A stretch of 64,000 bases of DNA from NCBI RefSeq assembly GCF_000788395.1, contig NZ_CP009889.1, forward strand, positions 1,302,001 to 1,366,000, in the 5' to 3' direction. Position 1 is the stretch's first letter; each line of letters begins with the position of its first letter. The DNA is from Pseudoalteromonas piratica (GTDB lineage Bacteria > Pseudomonadota > Gammaproteobacteria > Enterobacterales > Alteromonadaceae). Positions 27,911 through 36,672 of the stretch are shown here, piece after piece. The notes below the pieces were generated by a model, which saw only the letters and a program-made list of their open reading frames with translations, had not been told where the DNA came from and did not search any database. The translations under genes were made by a program, and so were the position numbers.

Positions 27911-29890
27911 GTGGGCATTTTTTACATAGGGAAGTTTAAAATTGAACCGGAAAAGAATAAGGTAAGTTTACCCAAGGCTGAATTTCGACTAGAACCTCGT
28001 GTAATGTCTATATTATGCTACCTGGTCAAACACCCAGGTCAGGTGCTCAGTAAAGAGATGATTTTGAGTGTACTATGGCCGAATCAAACCCTCGAGCCTG
28101 AGCTAGTGACAAAAGCCGTTTTTGAAATTCGAAAAATACTTAATGATAATCCTAAGTCGCCTCAGTTTATCGAAACCATCCCTCGTAAAGGTTATGTGTT
28201 TATAGGCAAAGTAGAATCTAAAGCCACCAAACTAAACATCACCAGTCTCTTACTATTAGGGATTTCTACGTGTGCATTGATTTTCTTATTTTTTATCAAA
28301 AATACGCAGCAAAATGAGATTCAATTAGTTAACTTAACCACTAAAAAGACAATACGACACAGTAGCGATGGTGAAATCGATTCAATAAGCGTTAATAACC
28401 GAAACCAACTTTTGTTTACTCGCAAAGAGCACGCTTTGTCTGAGCTTTACCTACACGATAACAAAACGCTTAAAAACACCTTGCTTGACACACAACAATC
28501 TAAAATAAAAGACATATTTTCAACGAATGAGAGCGATTACATTATTAGTTGTGATGACGCTTGCTCAATTGTTAAGCGCAGCAAGAACAGGGTTATGCCT
28601 GTAATAACCTTAAATGAGAGAGTTGTTGAGTTGAGCGTTTCTCCGAATGAAAAGTGGCTAGCATTGCAAACCAGCAAACACAATAGACATAATGTTGTGC
28701 TAGTTTCGCTCGAAGATCAGGACGCTAAGCTTTTTTATCTCCCTCATGATGGCAGTGAAAAACACCCAGTATTTGCCAACAATGAAACCCTATATTACAT
28801 TTCACAATCAGCAGACAGAACAACCTATTTAGCCAATTACAATCTCGATACACGTCAAACACTGACACAACCTTTACCAATTGATAGGGTGGGTAGCTTA
28901 TCGCATTACTCCGGCGAAGAGTTCGTAATTGCTGGGCGCTATAATGGACAATATGCGTTGTGGCTATTGGCTTTAGAACCCATGTCACTGTCTGTGTTAG
29001 CAAACATTGATCCGCAGCAAAAAGTGGTTGGGGTCGCGATTGAAGCAAAAAACAAGGCGATTCATTATGCTGTACAAAATCGTCCCATCACGATTCAAAG
29101 CAAAGGCGCATTATCATTAAAAATCGAACATCCTAGCCTCAATCTTGATGGTGTATATCTCGCCCAAAGTAATAATCTCATTTTTAGTTCAAATCGTTCA
29201 GGAAGCTATGAAGTTTGGATAGAGTCAGATGGTCAACAATCAAAACTTACTGATATTAATGCAAGCTATATTCATGCGATTAAAGTAGATAACAAAGAAA
29301 AGTTGATTGCCTTTAGCTATACCAAAGACAAAACCAAACATATTGCAATTTACTCTTTATTAAATAATGCACTGATATCGGACTTTTCAATAAAGAACGA
29401 TAGTTATTTACTCAATTTTGATCACACCTCTACGCATTTATTTATTAGTCAGCGAGCGGCTCAAAACTATGATTTAGTAAGCTTAAATATCGAAAGCCAA
29501 ACACACGCTAAAATTGCAATTAATGTCGGTATTACAGCAATGAGTGATGAAAATGGGGTTTATTTCTATTCATTCAATGATCACACCCTACAGTATCAGG
29601 CTAATATTGGAAAAACTAATAAGCTGTATGACTTTAAAGATAAAGCACTGAGTATTAGAGCGAGTAGTATAAAACTAACAAAAGAGGGCTTCTTTTATTT
29701 AAGTAAGATCGAAAATCAGCAAGTTATCAGCTTTTTCGAGCTGACAACCCAAACAACTAAGCCATTATTTATGCTGAACGCGAATCAGTTTGTTACTGAT
29801 TTTGGTTTTATCAACCAAGAACCTTATGTTATCTATGATGAAGACGGCAGCGTTACCAGTCAGATAATCAGTTTAGAGGTAGTCGATTAA
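27911..29890 (+). CDS. CadC/ToxR-like transmembrane transcription regulator with propeller-like sensor
   Basis: This 659-aa protein is a membrane-bound one-component regulator. Residues 1-100 are an OmpR/CadC winged helix (RLEPRVMSILCYLVKHPGQVLSKEMILSVLWP, then ELVTKAVFEIRKILNDNPKSPQFIETIPRKGYVF). One transmembrane helix is at about 112-131 (LLLLGISTCALIFLFFI). The remaining 500 residues are periplasmic, with TolB/WD-like beta-propeller rhythm (SVSPNEKWLALQTSKHNRHNVVLVS; IFSSNRSGSYEVWIES). The start is GTG 27911, with AGAAGG 6 nt upstream, which keeps the winged helix intact. It diverges from the FG-GAP gene, its most likely target, and from itself via the direct repeats at 27858. Confidence 0.88.
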   Translation: MGIFYIGKFKIEPEKNKVSLPKAEFRLEPRVMSILCYLVKHPGQVLSKEMILSVLWPNQTLEPELVTKAVFEIRKILNDNPKSPQFIETIPRKGYVFIGKVESKATKLNITSLLLLGISTCALIFLFFIKNTQQNEIQLVNLTTKKTIRHSSDGEIDSISVNNRNQLLFTRKEHALSELYLHDNKTLKNTLLDTQQSKIKDIFSTNESDYIISCDDACSIVKRSKNRVMPVITLNERVVELSVSPNEKWLALQTSKHNRHNVVLVSLEDQDAKLFYLPHDGSEKHPVFANNETLYYISQSADRTTYLANYNLDTRQTLTQPLPIDRVGSLSHYSGEEFVIAGRYNGQYALWLLALEPMSLSVLANIDPQQKVVGVAIEAKNKAIHYAVQNRPITIQSKGALSLKIEHPSLNLDGVYLAQSNNLIFSSNRSGSYEVWIESDGQQSKLTDINASYIHAIKVDNKEKLIAFSYTKDKTKHIAIYSLLNNALISDFSIKNDSYLLNFDHTSTHLFISQRAAQNYDLVSLNIESQTHAKIAINVGITAMSDENGVYFYSFNDHTLQYQANIGKTNKLYDFKDKALSIRASSIKLTKEGFFYLSKIENQQVISFFELTTQTTKPLFMLNANQFVTDFGFINQEPYVIYDEDGSVTSQIISLEVVD

Positions 29891-29928: not shown

Positions 29929-30447
29929 TTAAAGCGCATTGAGAATATTTTTAACAAAGGGTGATTTAGCTTTGCCATAGTCATCTTGCACTGTTGTACC
30001 ACGCGCGATCACTTCCCGTTTTTTTGCTTCATAAGCCGCCCTATCCGCAGGATTATTGAGCATATGCTGTTTATATTTCACTTGTTTTAAATGCTCTTCA
30101 CTGTTTTTTTCAATCACATGCATGTGCACATTAAACGTTTCATTTTCAAAAATTACAGCAATGTCTTTACGTGGCCTTGAATCAGGAAAAGGATTGTCAC
30201 TATGCTGATCAACAAAGCCGAAGTGTTTAAGGTGAGCAACAGCTTCTTCTAACTTTCCTGGTGGGTACAAAATAGAAATATCAATAATCCCCTTGCCCGC
30301 TACTTGAAACGAAGAAGAGCCGAAGTGAAGAAAGTCGAATCGCTTTTCTTCAAGTTTATTAATTACTGCTGCTGCGACATCTAAATAAATTGCGCGCCAT
30401 GGATTGAAACTGGCAGGAACGAGACTGTATTTGCAAAAAGAGAGCAT
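29929..30447 (-). CDS. GrpB-family (UPF0157) nucleotidyltransferase-like protein
   Basis: This 172-aa cytosolic protein matches the GrpB family. HFGSSSFQVAGKGIIDISI (about 41-59) corresponds to the nucleotidyltransferase-fold motif (usual form HIGSTSVPGLxAKPIIDI), with NVHMHVIE in the middle. The C-terminal YKQHMLNNPADRAAYEAKKREVI block is typical (LRxNPxxxxxYxxLK). The usual second Ser/Thr of the GSTS loop is Ser here and Pro is missing, so activity is uncertain. Members' substrates are unknown. Its start region (ATG 30447) faces a Fur-like control region at 30480-30566. Confidence 0.75.
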   Translation of the reverse strand: MLSFCKYSLVPASFNPWRAIYLDVAAAVINKLEEKRFDFLHFGSSSFQVAGKGIIDISILYPPGKLEEAVAHLKHFGFVDQHSDNPFPDSRPRKDIAVIFENETFNVHMHVIEKNSEEHLKQVKYKQHMLNNPADRAAYEAKKREVIARGTTVQDDYGKAKSPFVKNILNAL

Positions 30448-30539
30448 TTAAAAACATCCATAAAAATATTCACTCATAATAACATGTGTTTAACCACAAT
30501 CATTATGCTTGCGTGAATAATAAAAACCGCAAAACCGTA

Positions 30540-30566
30540 TTGCGAATGATTATCACTTGATATAAT
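30540..30566 (+). promoter_or_regulatory. Fur-box-overlapped promoter of a small RNA
   Basis: TGCGAAT-G-ATTATCA (30541-30555) matches the Fur 7-1-7 site TGATAAT-n-ATTATCA at 12 of 14 positions. It overlaps a -35-like TTGCGA (30540-30545) and leads to a perfect TATAAT at 30561-30566. The spacing of 15 bp is short but usable. A weaker AATCATTAT element is at about 30497-30505. Iron-loaded Fur bound here would shut off plus-strand transcription. Confidence 0.65.
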
Positions 30567-30572
30567 ATCACC

Positions 30573-30728
30573 TGAGTTGGCTTAATGGTTATCTCTGATT
30601 AAAGCTGATATTTCTACAAGGCTTATTTTTCAATAAAACGAGTTCCCTGAGATTTAGTAACTGTTCACCTATTTAGGTAGCTCCCCTACTAAGTTAACAC
30701 ACCCAAGGGCACCTAAGTGCCCTTTTTA
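30573..30728 (+). ncRNA. Candidate Fur-repressed small RNA (RyhB/PrrF-like role)
   Basis: A plus-strand promoter with an overlapping Fur box (30540-30566) and a strong intrinsic terminator (30705-30727) bound a region of about 155 nt with no coding frame longer than a few codons. Inside it, TTAG-g-TAG / CTA-CTAA (30673-30692) forms a hairpin whose loop is CTCCC, an exposed C-rich seed as seen in several iron-responsive sRNAs. The terminator's T-run is on the plus strand, so it does not serve the minus-strand araC-type gene it touches. The likely role, by analogy, is to lower iron-using proteins under iron starvation. No homology to RyhB was seen; the ends are predictions. Confidence 0.55.
30705..30727 (+). 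terminator. Intrinsic terminator of the candidate sRNA
   Basis: AAGGGCAC (30705-30712) pairs with GTGCCCTT (30717-30724) around CTAA, then T to 30727. On the minus strand the hairpin is followed by GGGTGTG, so it is not a good terminator for the AraC-type gene. Confidence 0.8.
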
Positions 30729-31598
30729 ATTTATAAGATCATGATTAAGTAATTGCTGACGGAATTTGCGCGGAGTACAGCCTTTAATTGCTAAAAAACG
30801 GCGATTAAAGTTAGATACATTATTGAAGCCACATTGATCACTGATTACTGAAATAGGTGAAGAGCTACTGATTAATAATTTACACGCTTTACCAATACGT
30901 AATCTGTTTATAAACTCTGTGAGCGTGTACTCTGTTCGTTGTTTGAAGTAACGATGGAAATGATTTGTTGACATATGAGCAAGCTCTGCAAGCTGCTCGG
31001 CATATAAGCTTTCAGTATAATTTTCGTAAATAAATTCAATTACTTGATTAAGTTTTCCATTGTTTTTTTCTAATTGTTTACCAAAAGCAAACATGGGTGA
31101 AGACAAAGTATGCTGCTGCGTATCATCTAACATGATGGTAAGTAACTCTAACAGAAGAATAAACCGTTGAGCGCCACTTGCCTCATCCATTTTTTCAAAT
31201 AAGTGCTTGGCTGAGAGTGCGCAGGCAGTGGAAAATTTAATGCCTTTTAGAGAACGGGTTAACAATGACATCATTCCTTGCAATTCTTTGTGGTCTCGCA
31301 CGAGTTTATCAAGCCAATTAACGGGCACTTGAGCGACATAAACAATTTGCTCTGAGCCATCACTATTACTTTCAGATTGCCAGGTATGGGGTAAATTAGG
31401 CCCCATAAAAACTAAATCATAGTCACCATATTCAGCGATGTGGTCACCGATATGGCGCACTCCTTTACTATTTAAGGTTAAACAGATTTCGTATTCAGGA
31501 TGGTAATGCCAACTAAATGGCAGATAAGGCATTTGATATTTATGATAACGCCATGATGCGTCCGTTGGCGTGATAATTTTTTCGCAAAAGGCGCGCAT
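30726..31598 (-). CDS. AraC-family regulator, probable controller of the GlcNAc operon
   Basis: This 290-aa protein has an N-terminal cupin-like sensor with the metal/ligand-type cluster FSWHYHPEYEI (about 28-38) and GPNLPHTWQS. The C-terminal double helix-turn-helix (about 185-288) has YAEQLAELAHMSTNHFHRYFKQRTEYTLTEFINRLRIGKA and ISVISDQCGFNNVSNFNRRFLAIKGCTPRKFRQ, the full AraC signature. It is divergent from the FHS carrier/ROK kinase/hexosaminidase operon across a 418-bp region with several inverted repeats, so control of that operon is likely. The ligand is presumably a chitin-derived sugar (inference). Confidence 0.88.
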   Translation of the reverse strand: MRAFCEKIITPTDASWRYHKYQMPYLPFSWHYHPEYEICLTLNSKGVRHIGDHIAEYGDYDLVFMGPNLPHTWQSESNSDGSEQIVYVAQVPVNWLDKLVRDHKELQGMMSLLTRSLKGIKFSTACALSAKHLFEKMDEASGAQRFILLLELLTIMLDDTQQHTLSSPMFAFGKQLEKNNGKLNQVIEFIYENYTESLYAEQLAELAHMSTNHFHRYFKQRTEYTLTEFINRLRIGKACKLLISSSSPISVISDQCGFNNVSNFNRRFLAIKGCTPRKFRQQLLNHDLIN

Positions 31599-32016
31599 TT
31601 ATTATAATTCCCGACGTGAAGTTACATAATATTTCACCAAAATTACAAACCCGCTTTAATACTATTCTAACAAGTAACAATACTTTTCTATTTTATTTTA
31701 GGGCTTACTTCTGTGCTATTAGATAAAAGTCGCACGCACTGAGAGTTGGCTACTAAAAAACCCCAAACAAACTGCATGATGATTGAATAGTATTACTAGT
31801 AAATAGAAAAATACCGCTTACACGTGAGATTCATTGGCAGACTAAATAACGTTTACTGTCGGATCTGGTATTTCCCCCTAAGAAATGGCTAAACAGACAT
31901 GTAAACACGAGGTGGTAGTAATCCCCTTGATTTTGTCTGCCCGCCATAAATCATATTTTTGCTACCACCTCATTATTTGAACAACTTACCAATATAACAA
32001 TAATTAGGATTAAACT
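31599..32016. promoter_or_regulatory. 418-bp divergent control region with inverted repeats
   Basis: No gene is seen in this stretch. It contains AATACTATTC (31658-31667) with its complement GAATAGTATT (31785-31794), and TTTTCTATTT (31684-31693) with AAATAGAAAA (31801-31810). These are two inverted pairs in interleaved order. GAGGTGGTAG (31909-31918) and CTACCACCTC (31962-31971) form a third, perfect 10-bp pair around 43 bases, closer to the carrier gene. They could be AraC-type looping sites or leader RNA structures. Promoters were not assigned. Confidence 0.5.
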
Positions 32017-33261
32017 ATGAAAGCCTATCCGGTCGTGCTTTTGGTACTCATCACATTCTTTGTGATTTCGTTTGTCACAAACTTACTGGGTCCCATTTTC
32101 CCAGCCTTAATTGACAGTTATCAAATTGGGTTATTGCTTGCAGGCTTCTTTCCTTTTGCTTTTTTTGCTGCCTACGGCTTAATGTCTATTCCTGCAGGTT
32201 TACTGGCTCAGGAAAAAGGTGAGAAATTCGTTATTGTGTTTGCTTTTGCATTAGCAACATTGGGCGCAATTTTATTTGTTGTATTACCCACTTTTGCCAT
32301 GGCAATGTTTGCTTTATTTACCATCGGCAGTGCGATGGCCCTGTTGCAAGTTGCCATCAATCCACTACTTAGACGCGCTGGCGGTGAGCAACATTTCGCG
32401 GCATTTTCAGTGGCAGCACAACTGCTGTTTGGTGCAGCTGCAACCCTATCGCCAATTGTATACAGCAGCCTAGTCTCGCATATTCAAACTGGTAGCGAAT
32501 TAGGTCAACAATTAAGTACCTTTACTCAGCCAAATAAAGACTGGTTAATTATGTATGCCTTGTTTGCTGTTATCAGTATCATCATGCTGATTATTACTCT
32601 TTTTACCGTCATTCCCAAAGCGCAACAGGGCTCAACTACAATTCGCTTTAGCGAGTCCTTAGCACTGTTTAAAGACAAAACGGTATTGTTATTTTTTATT
32701 GCCATTGCCTGTTATGTTGGTTTAGAACAAGGTATCGCTAACTCAATTTCAGTATTTTTAGCCACTTACCACGACGTTGATCCAAATACCCAAGGTACAG
32801 AAGTGGTCAGTCAATTTTGGCTACTGCTTACCATTGGGTGCATTTTAGGCTTAGCACTATTGAAAATCATGGATGCAAAACAAGTACTCAAACTGTTTTC
32901 TATTGGTGCGGCATGCTCGCTCATGTTTGCTATTTTTGGCACAAAAGAAATAGCATTAATTGCATTCCCTGCCTCGGGCTTCTTTTTGTCAATTATGTGG
33001 TCGGTGATTTTCTCTCTCGGTTTAAACTCTGTTGCCAAAGGACACAGTGCAGTTTCTGGCATTTTATGTACGGGTATTGTGGGTGGCGCACTCGCATCGC
33101 CTATTATTGGCTTTTTCGCGGAGCTCTCAGGCGACCTTCGTTTTTCACTTCTGGTGCTATTAATACCATTAGGCTTTATTTTTAGTGTCAGTGTGTGGGC
33201 CAAGCCACTTATTAAAAACCACACAATTCAACTCGTTAAAAAACGCACAGCAATGGATTAA
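32017..33261 (+). CDS. nagP: FHS/NagP-like sugar carrier (N-acetylglucosamine/chitobiose import)
   Basis: This 414-aa major facilitator has 12 membrane segments, of the fucose-galactose-glucose/H+ symporter branch. The opening FFVISFVTNLLGPIFPALIDSYQIGLLLAGFFPFAFFAAYGLMSIPAGLLAQEKG is the typical FHS N-terminus with its A-motif-like loop. GxxxNPLLRRAGG is in helix 4-5, and SIMWSVIFSLGLNSVAKGHSAVSGILCTGIVGGALASPIIG is near the end. NagP carriers of Shewanella/Alteromonas belong to this branch. Co-location with a sugar kinase (gap 8 bp) and a GH20 hexosaminidase supports GlcNAc or a related amino sugar as substrate. ATG 32017 has AGGAT 9 nt upstream. Confidence 0.82.
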   Translation: MKAYPVVLLVLITFFVISFVTNLLGPIFPALIDSYQIGLLLAGFFPFAFFAAYGLMSIPAGLLAQEKGEKFVIVFAFALATLGAILFVVLPTFAMAMFALFTIGSAMALLQVAINPLLRRAGGEQHFAAFSVAAQLLFGAAATLSPIVYSSLVSHIQTGSELGQQLSTFTQPNKDWLIMYALFAVISIIMLIITLFTVIPKAQQGSTTIRFSESLALFKDKTVLLFFIAIACYVGLEQGIANSISVFLATYHDVDPNTQGTEVVSQFWLLLTIGCILGLALLKIMDAKQVLKLFSIGAACSLMFAIFGTKEIALIAFPASGFFLSIMWSVIFSLGLNSVAKGHSAVSGILCTGIVGGALASPIIGFFAELSGDLRFSLLVLLIPLGFIFSVSVWAKPLIKNHTIQLVKKRTAMD

Positions 33262-33269
33262 AAACGATT

Positions 33270-34136
33270 ATGACGAACCAAGTTTCCCCTTACATTACCT
33301 GTGTCGACCTCGGTGGCACTAAACTCGCGATAGCAAATATATGTAATGGTCGCATAATCTCATCAAAGCGACAGCCGATAAACAGCACCCTAAATGCAGC
33401 TGATTTTAATGCCTTTTTAATCGAACAACTTAGTCCTTTTATAACAGAAAGTTGCCAAGGCATTTGTATTGGTGTTCCCGGTTTAGTTGAAACACACTCT
33501 GGCTTTGTAATCGAAGTACTCAACATTCCTAAATGGCACAACGTGGCTTTAAAAACACTATTTGAAAAACACTTTAAAGTACCAACACTGGTTCATAACG
33601 ATGCCAACTGTTTTACCTATGGCATTTTTAAACACGCTAATTATCAACATTTTGATAATGTGGTGGGTGTTACATTAGGCACCGGGCTCGGTGCAGGACT
33701 CATTTTAAATAATCAGCTTTATACAGGAAAACAATCAGCAGCCGGGGAGTTTGGCAGTTTTCCTTACTTAGATGGCATTATTGAGCACTATTGTTCTGGA
33801 CAATTTTTTAAACGACAAGGCCTTGATGGGTTAACCACTTTTGAACAAGCGCAGGCTGGAGAAACAAAAGCCCTTAACTTATTTAGTGAACTGGGTACGC
33901 ACTTGGGCAGCGCAATCGTTCAGGTTGTTCAAGCCTTTAACCCAGACGCTATCGTATTTGGCGGCTCAGTTGCCAAAAGTGCGCCTTTCTTTCTCCCTAA
34001 CCTGCAGCAAACATTAAAAAGCACACTGCCACCAAGCGTATTTAGCGCGCTGCAAGTTCATTACACACAAGACGCCAATACTGCTTTATTTGGTGCCTAT
34101 CACCTTTTTACTTCTGAGGTTATGACACGTGATTAA
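33270..34136 (+). CDS. nagK: ROK-family sugar kinase, probable N-acetylglucosamine kinase
   Basis: This 288-aa protein shows the ROK fold: CVDLGGTKLAIA (phosphate loop, residues 11-22), GICIGVPGLVE, HNDANCFTYG (catalytic Asp in the NDAN block, about 111) and GVTLGTGLGAGLILN (about 134-148). After GEFGSFPYLDG the zinc site is gone: the usual GH(x)11-13CxCGxxGCxE appears as GSFPYLDGIIEHYCSGQF, with Ser for the metal-binding His and a single Cys. It is therefore a ROK kinase without the structural zinc centre. It should phosphorylate the imported amino sugar. It sits 8 bp after the carrier stop and its end overlaps the hexosaminidase start by 8 bp. Confidence 0.82.
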   Translation: MTNQVSPYITCVDLGGTKLAIANICNGRIISSKRQPINSTLNAADFNAFLIEQLSPFITESCQGICIGVPGLVETHSGFVIEVLNIPKWHNVALKTLFEKHFKVPTLVHNDANCFTYGIFKHANYQHFDNVVGVTLGTGLGAGLILNNQLYTGKQSAAGEFGSFPYLDGIIEHYCSGQFFKRQGLDGLTTFEQAQAGETKALNLFSELGTHLGSAIVQVVQAFNPDAIVFGGSVAKSAPFFLPNLQQTLKSTLPPSVFSALQVHYTQDANTALFGAYHLFTSEVMTRD

Positions 34137-36672
34137 ACGTTTTTCACTCTCTTTTTTATTTTGTGTTACTCCCCTGTTTGCTAATCAAGCTGCGATTGAT
34201 GATCTCGCAGCTAATTTACAGGTTAAATACACTTTAATAGATGCCATGCCAGTGAGCTGTCCTGAAAAGCTAAAAAAATGCTACTTATCTGAGCTGGTAC
34301 TAACTGTACCAAGTGATGCAAGGTACAACGACTTTTCTATCTTTTTTAGCCAGTTAATGCCTATTTATTCGGTTGAATCAGAGCACTTTTCTATCAGCCA
34401 TATTAATGGCGACTTACACAAAATCACCCCAAAAGCGGAGTTTACTGGATTTAATAAAGCAAAAGCTGAATCAATTCGCTTTTATACCAAAGATTCTCAA
34501 ATTACACGCTCTGAATTTATGCCAAATTACATCTTAACCAACAAAGATGCGTCCACAGATATCAGGGCTAGAGTGATAAAAAGTACACAAACTACACTCG
34601 ATGAAGACACTGGGCTCGAACAACAACCTTACCTTGCCCCGTTTAAATCACTTAACCAACTAAGAGTGAGCAAGCATGATAAAACGCCTTGGATGGGAGC
34701 GCAGTATCTTTATCAAACACAAGTCAAACCAACATTGACAAAACCGCCGGTGAGTTTAATTCCAAAACCAACTCATTTAGAGATACACACTCCCAGTAAA
34801 AACGTTGATTTAGCCAAAGGTCTAGCGATTGCGCCAGAACTGGCAAATAATCATGCCCTATCGGCAGCTTTTGCGCGGCTCAGTGCACTCGGTATAAAAG
34901 CAAATGACACAGGTATTAAAACGACGCTAATAATTGATACCTCTCTTGCCAATGAAGCTTATTCGTTGGACATAACCCCTCAATCGATCATTATAACCGC
35001 AAGCAATAACACCGGAGCTTTTTATGGCTTAATGTCAATTGCAGGACTTGTCAGCCTCGATAATTTAGTCGTGCCGAGTCTTAAAATAAATGATGCCCCG
35101 CATTTCGAATTTCGCGGTTTACATCTGGATGTAGCACGAAACTTTCGCTCTAAAGCGTTTATCTTAAACACCTTGTCGCAAATGGCAGTTTACAAACTTA
35201 ATAAGCTGCATTTACATCTCGCTGATGATGAAGGGTGGCGGTTAGCAATTGATGACTTACCCGAACTAACCCAAGTCGGGGGTCATCGTTGTTTTGATTT
35301 GACCGAAACTGAATGCTTATTACCCCAATTAGGCGCTGGCATAGACAAAACTTCGTCAATAAATGGCTTTTACAGTAAAAAAGATTACCAAGAAATCTTA
35401 AAGTTTGCTGCGCTCAATCATATTGAGGTGATCCCATCGCTTGACATGCCCGGGCACTCTCGCGCCGCGGTAAAAGCCATGGATGCGCGCTATCAAAAAT
35501 ACATAACACTAGGCAATAAAGCAAAAGCCGAGGAATACTGGTTAAGTGAACCAAATGACGATACTGTTTATAGCTCTATACAACACTACAATGACAATAC
35601 ACTGAATGTATGTTTGCCGAGTACCTATCGCTTTATTGAAAAAGTAATTGATGAGTTGATAGCAATGCACCAAGAGGTGGGGGTTGAGCTTACAACCTAC
35701 CATATCGGCGCGGATGAAACTGCAGGTGCATGGTTGCAAAGTCCAGCCTGTAATGCACTCAAATCCCAGCAACCTGGTTTAACTTCGTTTAATGGTTACT
35801 TTATTGAAAAGGTGGCAAAAGTCATTGAAAATAAGGGTGTTAAAGTTGCCGCTTGGAATGACGGACTTGGCGATACCAAAGCGACAAATATGCCAACAGC
35901 TGTGCAGTCTAATGGCTGGTCTATGATCACCGAAGGCGGTCATCAAGAAATACATAAACAAGCAAACTTAGGCTGGGATATGGTGTTATCTATTCCAGAA
36001 GTATCTTATTTCGATTTTCCTTACCAAAGTCACCCTGAAGAGCGCGGTAATCACTGGGCTGCACGGGCAATTGATGGTTATAAAGTATTTAGTTTTATGC
36101 CAGAAAATTTACCGGCACATGCCGAAATTTGGCGAACCAAAGAAAATACCAATTTCAATGCGGATGATACGCAACACCGCTTAGCATCAAATGTTAAATT
36201 TAAAGGGATACAAGCGCACCTTTGGAGTGAAATGATACGCTCAGACAAACAAGCAGAATACATGCTTTACCCTCGACTATTGGCGCTCGCTGAGCGGGCA
36301 TGGCACCGCGCTGACTGGCAATTACCTTACGCTGAAAAAGGCCGTGTTTATAATCAATCTAGTGAAACGTTTACTGAGCAAGCTCAGCAAGAAAGAACGC
36401 AAGATTGGCAACGCTTCGCAGCATTAGTTGGCTTTAAAGAAATTCCCAAATTAGCGTCAGAAGGCGTGTTTTATCGTATTCCCACAGTGGCAGCACAAAT
36501 AAAAAATGGCAAATTAGATGCGTTCACGCCCTACCCAGGTTTTGCTATTGAAGCAATGACCAATGAAGGCAAATGGCTACCAATAGATCAAATTCAACAT
36601 GGCAACGAGATTCAATCTGTTAGAGCAAAAAGCGCTGAGCGTGTTGGCCGGAGTTTACCCCTGACAGAATAA
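34129..36672 (+). CDS. GH20 beta-N-acetylhexosaminidase / chitobiase
   Basis: This 847-aa secreted enzyme has a signal peptide (RFSLSFLFCVTPLFA). The N-terminal carbohydrate-binding (CHB_HEX) domain, to about residue 190, is followed by a GH20b linker domain. The catalytic barrel from about 320 opens FEFRGLHLDVARNFRSKAFIL and includes HLADDEGWRL, then PSLDMPGHSRAAV and HIGADETAGAW with the Asp529-Glu530 catalytic pair, as in chitobiase. W-rich blocks (LWSEMIR, LAERAWHRADW) and a small C-terminal beta domain follow. It cleaves GlcNAc from chitobiose and chitin ends, feeding the carrier and kinase of the same operon. The start is GTG 34129, overlapping nagK, so it is translationally coupled. 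Confidence 0.93.
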   Translation: MIKRFSLSFLFCVTPLFANQAAIDDLAANLQVKYTLIDAMPVSCPEKLKKCYLSELVLTVPSDARYNDFSIFFSQLMPIYSVESEHFSISHINGDLHKITPKAEFTGFNKAKAESIRFYTKDSQITRSEFMPNYILTNKDASTDIRARVIKSTQTTLDEDTGLEQQPYLAPFKSLNQLRVSKHDKTPWMGAQYLYQTQVKPTLTKPPVSLIPKPTHLEIHTPSKNVDLAKGLAIAPELANNHALSAAFARLSALGIKANDTGIKTTLIIDTSLANEAYSLDITPQSIIITASNNTGAFYGLMSIAGLVSLDNLVVPSLKINDAPHFEFRGLHLDVARNFRSKAFILNTLSQMAVYKLNKLHLHLADDEGWRLAIDDLPELTQVGGHRCFDLTETECLLPQLGAGIDKTSSINGFYSKKDYQEILKFAALNHIEVIPSLDMPGHSRAAVKAMDARYQKYITLGNKAKAEEYWLSEPNDDTVYSSIQHYNDNTLNVCLPSTYRFIEKVIDELIAMHQEVGVELTTYHIGADETAGAWLQSPACNALKSQQPGLTSFNGYFIEKVAKVIENKGVKVAAWNDGLGDTKATNMPTAVQSNGWSMITEGGHQEIHKQANLGWDMVLSIPEVSYFDFPYQSHPEERGNHWAARAIDGYKVFSFMPENLPAHAEIWRTKENTNFNADDTQHRLASNVKFKGIQAHLWSEMIRSDKQAEYMLYPRLLALAERAWHRADWQLPYAEKGRVYNQSSETFTEQAQQERTQDWQRFAALVGFKEIPKLASEGVFYRIPTVAAQIKNGKLDAFTPYPGFAIEAMTNEGKWLPIDQIQHGNEIQSVRAKSAERVGRSLPLTE

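Follow-up and report, generated by a model that had tools for sequence, protein, structure and literature searches.

In Pseudomonas, the small RNAs PrrF1 and PrrF2 are controlled by Fur and lie in tandem, and the Fur-type box consensus reads TGATAATnATTATCA. Repeated GGA motifs mark another kind of small RNA (sRNA), the Csr antagonists, and Csr RNAs are described in P. fuliginea. Shewanella oneidensis has both Fur and RyhB, according to PMC8891985. In PMC9410917, IsrR of Staphylococcus and FsrA of Bacillus are presented as iron-controlled RNAs whose single-stranded C-rich regions lie in stem-loops or next to them, and binding of FsrA to Shine-Dalgarno sequences is attributed there to its C-rich motif.

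Here we consider a locus of Pseudoalteromonas piratica for which a Fur-repressed, possibly lineage-specific and iron-sparing sRNA had been proposed. The window is the whole 64,000-nt stretch of DNA that we analyzed.

A candidate Fur-controlled RNA gene between grpB and araC

The element occupies the plus strand in the 278-nt intergenic region between two minus-strand genes, grpB (GrpB family, 29929-30447) and a gene of the AraC family (30726-31598, called araC below), and the closest plus-strand gene upstream ends at 29890. On its other side (31599-36672), araC faces MFS, ROK-family and GH20 hexosaminidase genes; these neighbors may indicate control of amino-sugar or chitin-fragment use and contain no pointer to iron. 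The parts of the element are as follows, with their state in the three relatives that carry it (G096, G099 and G062; the window's own genome is G000).

30540-30566, plus strand: promoter, TTGCGA, 15 nt, then TATAAT with TGA before it (extended -10); -35/-10 pair also in G096, G099 and G062, at the same place
30541-30555, no strand assigned: Fur-type box, 12 of 14 positions; 11, 13 and 12 of 14 in G096, G099 and G062, at the same place
30573-30731, plus strand: predicted transcript of about 155 nt without an ORF, its start placed from the -10
30643-30649, plus strand: C-rich motif UUCCCUG, putative pairing region; in all four orthologs with small changes
30654-30693, plus strand: two-tier hairpin UUAGUA...UACUAAG with inner stem ACCU/AGGU; shape kept in all four, inner arms differing
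30681-30686, plus strand: CUCCCC in an internal loop; C run of this length in two of four
30688-30699, plus strand: ACUAAGUUAACA, the longest block common to the window and G099
30705-30731, plus strand: intrinsic terminator and T-tract, overlapping the region of the araC stop codon; G099 and G062 have it too, and in G096 it stands on a different contig

This is the layout that the original prediction had described, and its elements were recovered at its coordinates. The box TGCGAATGATTATCA agrees with the consensus at 12 of 14 positions over the -35-like TTGCGA, the TATAAT at 30561-30566 is perfect, no plus-strand ORF of at least 30 aa lies inside 30540-30728, and the plus-strand terminator at 30705-30724 belongs to no gene, there being no plus-strand gene before it. 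We found three 12/14 matches in the window compared to a mean of 0.68 in 100 shuffles, five of which reached at least three, and the whole genome holds 87 such box places versus 54 for a reversed control pattern. Since boxes of this quality are common in both window and genome, one such box alone is weak evidence, and the main weight of our argument is on recurrence in relatives. Within the intergenic region, a box this good arose in 0.65% of 20,000 mononucleotide shuffles. The -35 matches TTGACA at four of six positions, and because its spacing to TATAAT is only 15 nt, the promoter was missed by a scanner that requires 16-18 nt; the TGA directly before TATAAT makes it an extended -10.

The predicted transcript contains no ORF of at least eight codons, and the short ORFs in the transcripts of the relatives are unconserved. 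Folded as a whole (159 nt), it is weakly structured (z of -1.36, with 22 of 200 shuffles equally good), and its outer region is then paired differently; the hairpin by itself scored -1.25 in G000, -3.2 in G099, -3.65 in G062 and -3.91 in G096 against shuffles. The hairpin and the CUCCC that the original prediction had placed in its loop are both present, although in local folds (30637-30731, or just the hairpin) the CUCCC falls in an internal loop between the inner hairpin (ACCU/AGGU) and the outer stem (UUAGUA/UACUAA). The terminator, a GGGCAC hairpin of eight pairs with a T-tract, was listed by a terminator scanner, which reported four terminator-like sites in this 2.5-kb stretch versus 1.4 (sd 1.1) in shuffles. 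On the minus strand, its stem is followed by GGGTGTG and no T-tract.

Given this arrangement, the element (30540-30731) would be a stand-alone non-coding RNA gene of about 155 nt. Iron-loaded Fur would sit on the -35 to -10 region and block it, while in iron-poor cells the extended -10 promoter would fire and transcription would stop at the GGGCAC hairpin. The RNA would then most likely act in trans, its C-rich UUCCCUG (in some species also CUCCCC) pairing with purine-rich ribosome-binding sites.

Recurrence in close relatives and distribution in the order

A DNA search of 108 genomes of the genus gave matches in six, and the element is kept in four of these: G000, G096, G099 and G062. The matches in G067 and G021 share a terminator-like hairpin alone, and we rejected them as orthologs. 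From araC and grpB searches (107 genomes each) combined with reading of the sequence, we found the order grpB-element-araC in G000, G099 and G062, while in G096 grpB and most of the element stand at one contig end and araC with the terminator on another. The G096 break falls between ACUAAGUUAAC and the terminator (L004 1-80 and the araC-stop end of L008), and by eye the contig ends are inverted-repeat-like (CCTGAGCTCGGG / CCCGAGTTCAAG). They look like the trace of a mobile-element insertion, and the gene looks broken before its terminator in this genome.

All four boxes start one base into a TTGnGA. The -10 that follows is TATAAT after 15 nt in G000, TATAAA after 15 nt or TAAAGT after 17 nt in G096, and TAAAAT after 17 nt in both G099 and G062. 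Each of the four RNAs contains UUCCC(C)UG (within CUCCCUGG in G062, 5' of the hairpin), UUAGUAA, a hairpin with differing inner arms and ACUAAGUUAAC, which is directly followed by GGGCAC..GUGCCC in three of the four; the loop CUCCCC is kept only in G000 and, as UUCCCC, in G096. Identity to the window in G096, G099 and G062, respectively, was 86%, 86% and 82% for the promoter segment and 82%, 73% and 84% for the core, against a baseline of about 51% given by a shuffled partner; the 5' part is fast-changing (74%, 67% and 63%), and the grpB-side flank stood at 70%, 59% and 58%. The 9-mers shared with G099 were no denser here (7 of 270) than in the araC-MFS intergenic region (16 of 410).

The prediction of a Fur-repressed sRNA thus gains support from a box, a promoter pair, a hairpin and a C-rich motif in all four genomes, and from an intact terminator in three. 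Further points in its favor are a promoter segment better conserved (82-86%) than the grpB-side flank (58-70%), a two-tier hairpin whose shape persists with altered inner arms, and a plus-strand terminator that no plus-strand gene precedes. A Fur-type box kept on the promoter in relatives, a promoter and terminator of its own and the lack of a conserved ORF are features that would assign the element to this functional class. The points that count against an sRNA are the commonness of 12/14 boxes, the 15-nt spacing, the weak folds of the window's own RNA, the fast-changing 5' part, the 9-mers that are no denser with G099, a minus-strand promoter-like pair over the box in the three relatives, the apparently broken gene in G096 and a target test that gave no target (below). 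Weighing these, we consider a Fur-controlled, trans-acting sRNA gene of one small clade to be the likeliest reading of the element, with a probability of roughly two in three.

The box could instead serve grpB on the minus strand, with the plus-strand hairpin an unrelated terminator and no sRNA at all. A minus-strand TTGATA-17-GATAAT (G099 and G062) or GTGATA-17-GATAAT (G096) does overlap the box, and G000 has a TTCGCA-18-TATTAT on that strand; however, G000 does not keep a minus-strand pair over the box, whereas a plus-strand pair lies at the same place in all four genomes, and this reading would leave unexplained the hairpin, the C-rich motif and the terminator on the plus strand that the genomes share. 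We therefore regard control of grpB as an unlikely explanation.

A covariance model of the element (R1) recovered the four orthologs at E 2.1e-6 or better, and the next best match among 107 genus genomes was at 6.7e-4. Weak matches at E up to 1 occurred in 87 of the 107 genomes, mostly via the terminator. Twenty-six such extra loci (L066-L091) were rejected by eye, looking like gene-end terminators without the shared motifs; none has a 12/14 Fur box and two have an 11/14 box in the 400 nt before mid-match. Across 295 genomes of the order, E 0.001 was reached by the window's own genome and one other place, in G139 (35 bits), which we set aside because by eye it looks like a gene end. These genus- and order-wide runs used stricter filters, with which weak matches are lost.

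Among 30 araC loci scanned, a 12/14 box together with the motif was found in three (the window's own, G099 and G062), an assessment that leaves G096 aside because its locus (L008) is at a contig end. Among 76 named araC loci, two had a 12/14 box within 700 nt, one of them with the motif; a match of 106 bits was found in P1-9, presumably the same genome as G062, and one of 31 bits in a piece beside araC of G4, presumably G096. The expectation of a lineage-specific RNA is supported by the DNA, covariance and araC-locus searches alike (four genomes of the genus), and within the reach of these searches the RNA belongs to a single small clade.

No known family accounted for the element. The window contains no Rfam match at gathering scores, all matches for the window RNA falling far below them, and the RyhB model (RF00057) gave none in 30450-30760 up to E 10. 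Alignment of the candidate with E. coli RyhB did not recover the conserved pairing core (ACATTGCTCA region), the scores being reached by 14-85% of shuffles across the four orthologs. We also rejected a Csr antagonist, as the GGA count is 0 in all four orthologs.

Target predictions and a tandem Fur-boxed pair

The original prediction had further suggested an iron-sparing role. We located iron-related genes by Pfam family in the four genomes, naming them from family, length and N-terminus; the leuC starts (four genomes) and the G096 sdhC start were set by hand, and the G096 ferritin, a clipped locus, was left out. Shuffled targets served as the null because some starts in a 46-gene background had been wrongly chosen. 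For this chosen set of 10 own-genome leaders (two sod, sdhC, leuC, two aconitase, three ferritin/bacterioferritin and dps), the mean best pairing energy of the window RNA was -4.8, compared to -5.7 (sd 2.3) for shuffled targets. No pairing site in the iron-related leaders recurred in all four genomes, and two recurred only in the close pair G099/G062 (ferritin, -11.9/-9.3; aconitase, -5.9/-6.4). The iron-sparing role was thus not upheld by target prediction, in which pairing with the ten leaders was on average no better than with shuffled ones.

By listing the Fur boxes of the genome and reading their surroundings, we found a different locus with a stronger claim to that role. A unit of about 300 bp stands in two tandem copies at L230 6025-6610 (G000:C1, about 603024-603609); G099 has both copies (L231 7233-7820), G062 has one at a contig start (L232), and the G096 contig examined (L233) lacks the unit. 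Each unit consists of a box TGAGAATTATT(C/A)TCA, a TTGACA-17-GATAAT promoter, a second box TGATAATCAATCTCA over the -10, and a terminator, with a predicted transcript of about 225 nt. The TGAGAAT box halves seen at the window element in G099 occur again in the window's own genome, before this pair. Mean column identity over the four full copies is 92%, and the five copies seen do not differ in a 41-nt core, TTACTTGCTACATTGCTCATATCGGTGACGGTAGATATGAA. Of the 13 positions of ACATTGCTCAxAT in this core, 12 are shared with the pairing region of E. coli RyhB, a match reached by 1.3 and 1.8% of shuffles, yet the RyhB model gave no match at the pair even at E 10. The same listing included a perfect 14/14 Fur-type box (L217, G000:C2:934689), 388 nt before a gene that we take from its N-terminus to encode a class II fumarase, with a possible 111-aa frame between them.

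With accessibility weighting, the tandem RNA paired with the 10 own-genome targets at a mean of -8.9, compared to -6.5 (sd 2.5) for shuffles. Pairing with sodB was at the same site in G000 (-12.6) and G099 (-13.0), that with leuC was strong in G099 (-14.3) and weaker in G000 (-7.0, at another site), and the other sod gave only -2.3 and -6.6. Without accessibility, the core alone paired in all four genomes with leuC upstream of the ribosome-binding site (-26.3 to -32.8; G000 target shuffled, -16.4, sd 3.2, best of 500 -28.3) and with sodB codons 4-8 (-26.0 to -26.2; shuffled, -15.7, sd 3.4, best of 500 -30.0), at sites chosen after the scan and, for G096, with the core of the other genomes. The tandem pair, which does better than its null, acts as a positive control here and makes it less likely that the window RNA is the iron-sparing one. 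In G000, only the terminators of the two RNAs align; when the two were paired with each other, ignoring accessibility, the duplex scored -61.3 versus -49.7 (sd 5.2) in G000 and -74.9 versus -66.6 (sd 6.6) in G099.

The window RNA might still be the main iron-sparing RNA of the organism, a replacement for RyhB or PrrF that represses mRNAs of iron enzymes, as its Fur-type box and C-rich motif would suit and as the silence of the Rfam RyhB model in 107 Pseudoalteromonas genomes (stricter filters) might suggest. We think this quite improbable: the leader energies and the lack of a site common to the four genomes argue against it, the element was not found outside one clade as far as searched, and the tandem pair, judged from its sequence, is the better candidate for this part. 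The tandem pair looks like the RyhB of this genome, arranged as in PrrF.

Very unlikely, finally, is a convergent cis-acting RNA controlling araC (and perhaps amino-sugar use, with MFS, ROK and GH20 genes nearby), for although the araC stop codon (30726-30728) falls within the predicted 3' end and the neighboring families would suit, the two share just a few T-tract bases and araC orthologs in the other genomes read are without the element.

Comparison with described iron-responsive RNAs

Returning to the Fur-controlled sRNA, we conclude that the window RNA is probably a young addition, a second RNA of Fur type in a genome whose RyhB-like tandem pair is the more conserved. A bolder and still tentative proposal is that two Fur-controlled sRNAs, unrelated to each other, occur in this small clade: a RyhB-like pair that is older and would spare iron (leuC, sodB), and a young, fast-changing C-rich RNA with targets of its own. 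If that is true, close relatives would allow one to study how an iron-controlled sRNA is born and comes to divide its work with RyhB, the window RNA providing the case of a young Fur-controlled sRNA, and the tandem pair would bring RyhB-type control to a genus in which the standard model detects none. Among the papers listed for Pseudoalteromonas or Alteromonadales, from a library without most subscription journals, no title or abstract opening reports either RNA in this genus. Our analysis results in two loci open to testing: the window RNA, of Fur type and clade-specific, and, outside the window, the RyhB-like tandem pair as the better candidate.

The two resemble each other in having Fur boxes on the promoter, an intrinsic terminator and no ORF of annotated size, and they differ in that the promoters of the tandem pair contain TTGACA, each of its copies carries two boxes, and its 41-nt core is the same in every copy seen. 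As in IsrR, a C-rich motif stands beside a stem in the window RNA, a likeness of layout only, to RNAs of other phyla; IsrR and FsrA may therefore offer an analogy for a possible mode of action, not membership. With RyhB (RF00057), the window RNA shares a Fur-type box on the promoter, an intrinsic terminator and a stand-alone non-coding gene; unlike RyhB, it has no Rfam match, aligns to the E. coli RNA within chance and lacks support for iron-enzyme targets. Its likeness to PrrF1 and PrrF2 is Fur control, by analogy only, and it differs from them in being single copy and without an Rfam match, the tandem layout being that of the other pair in the genome.
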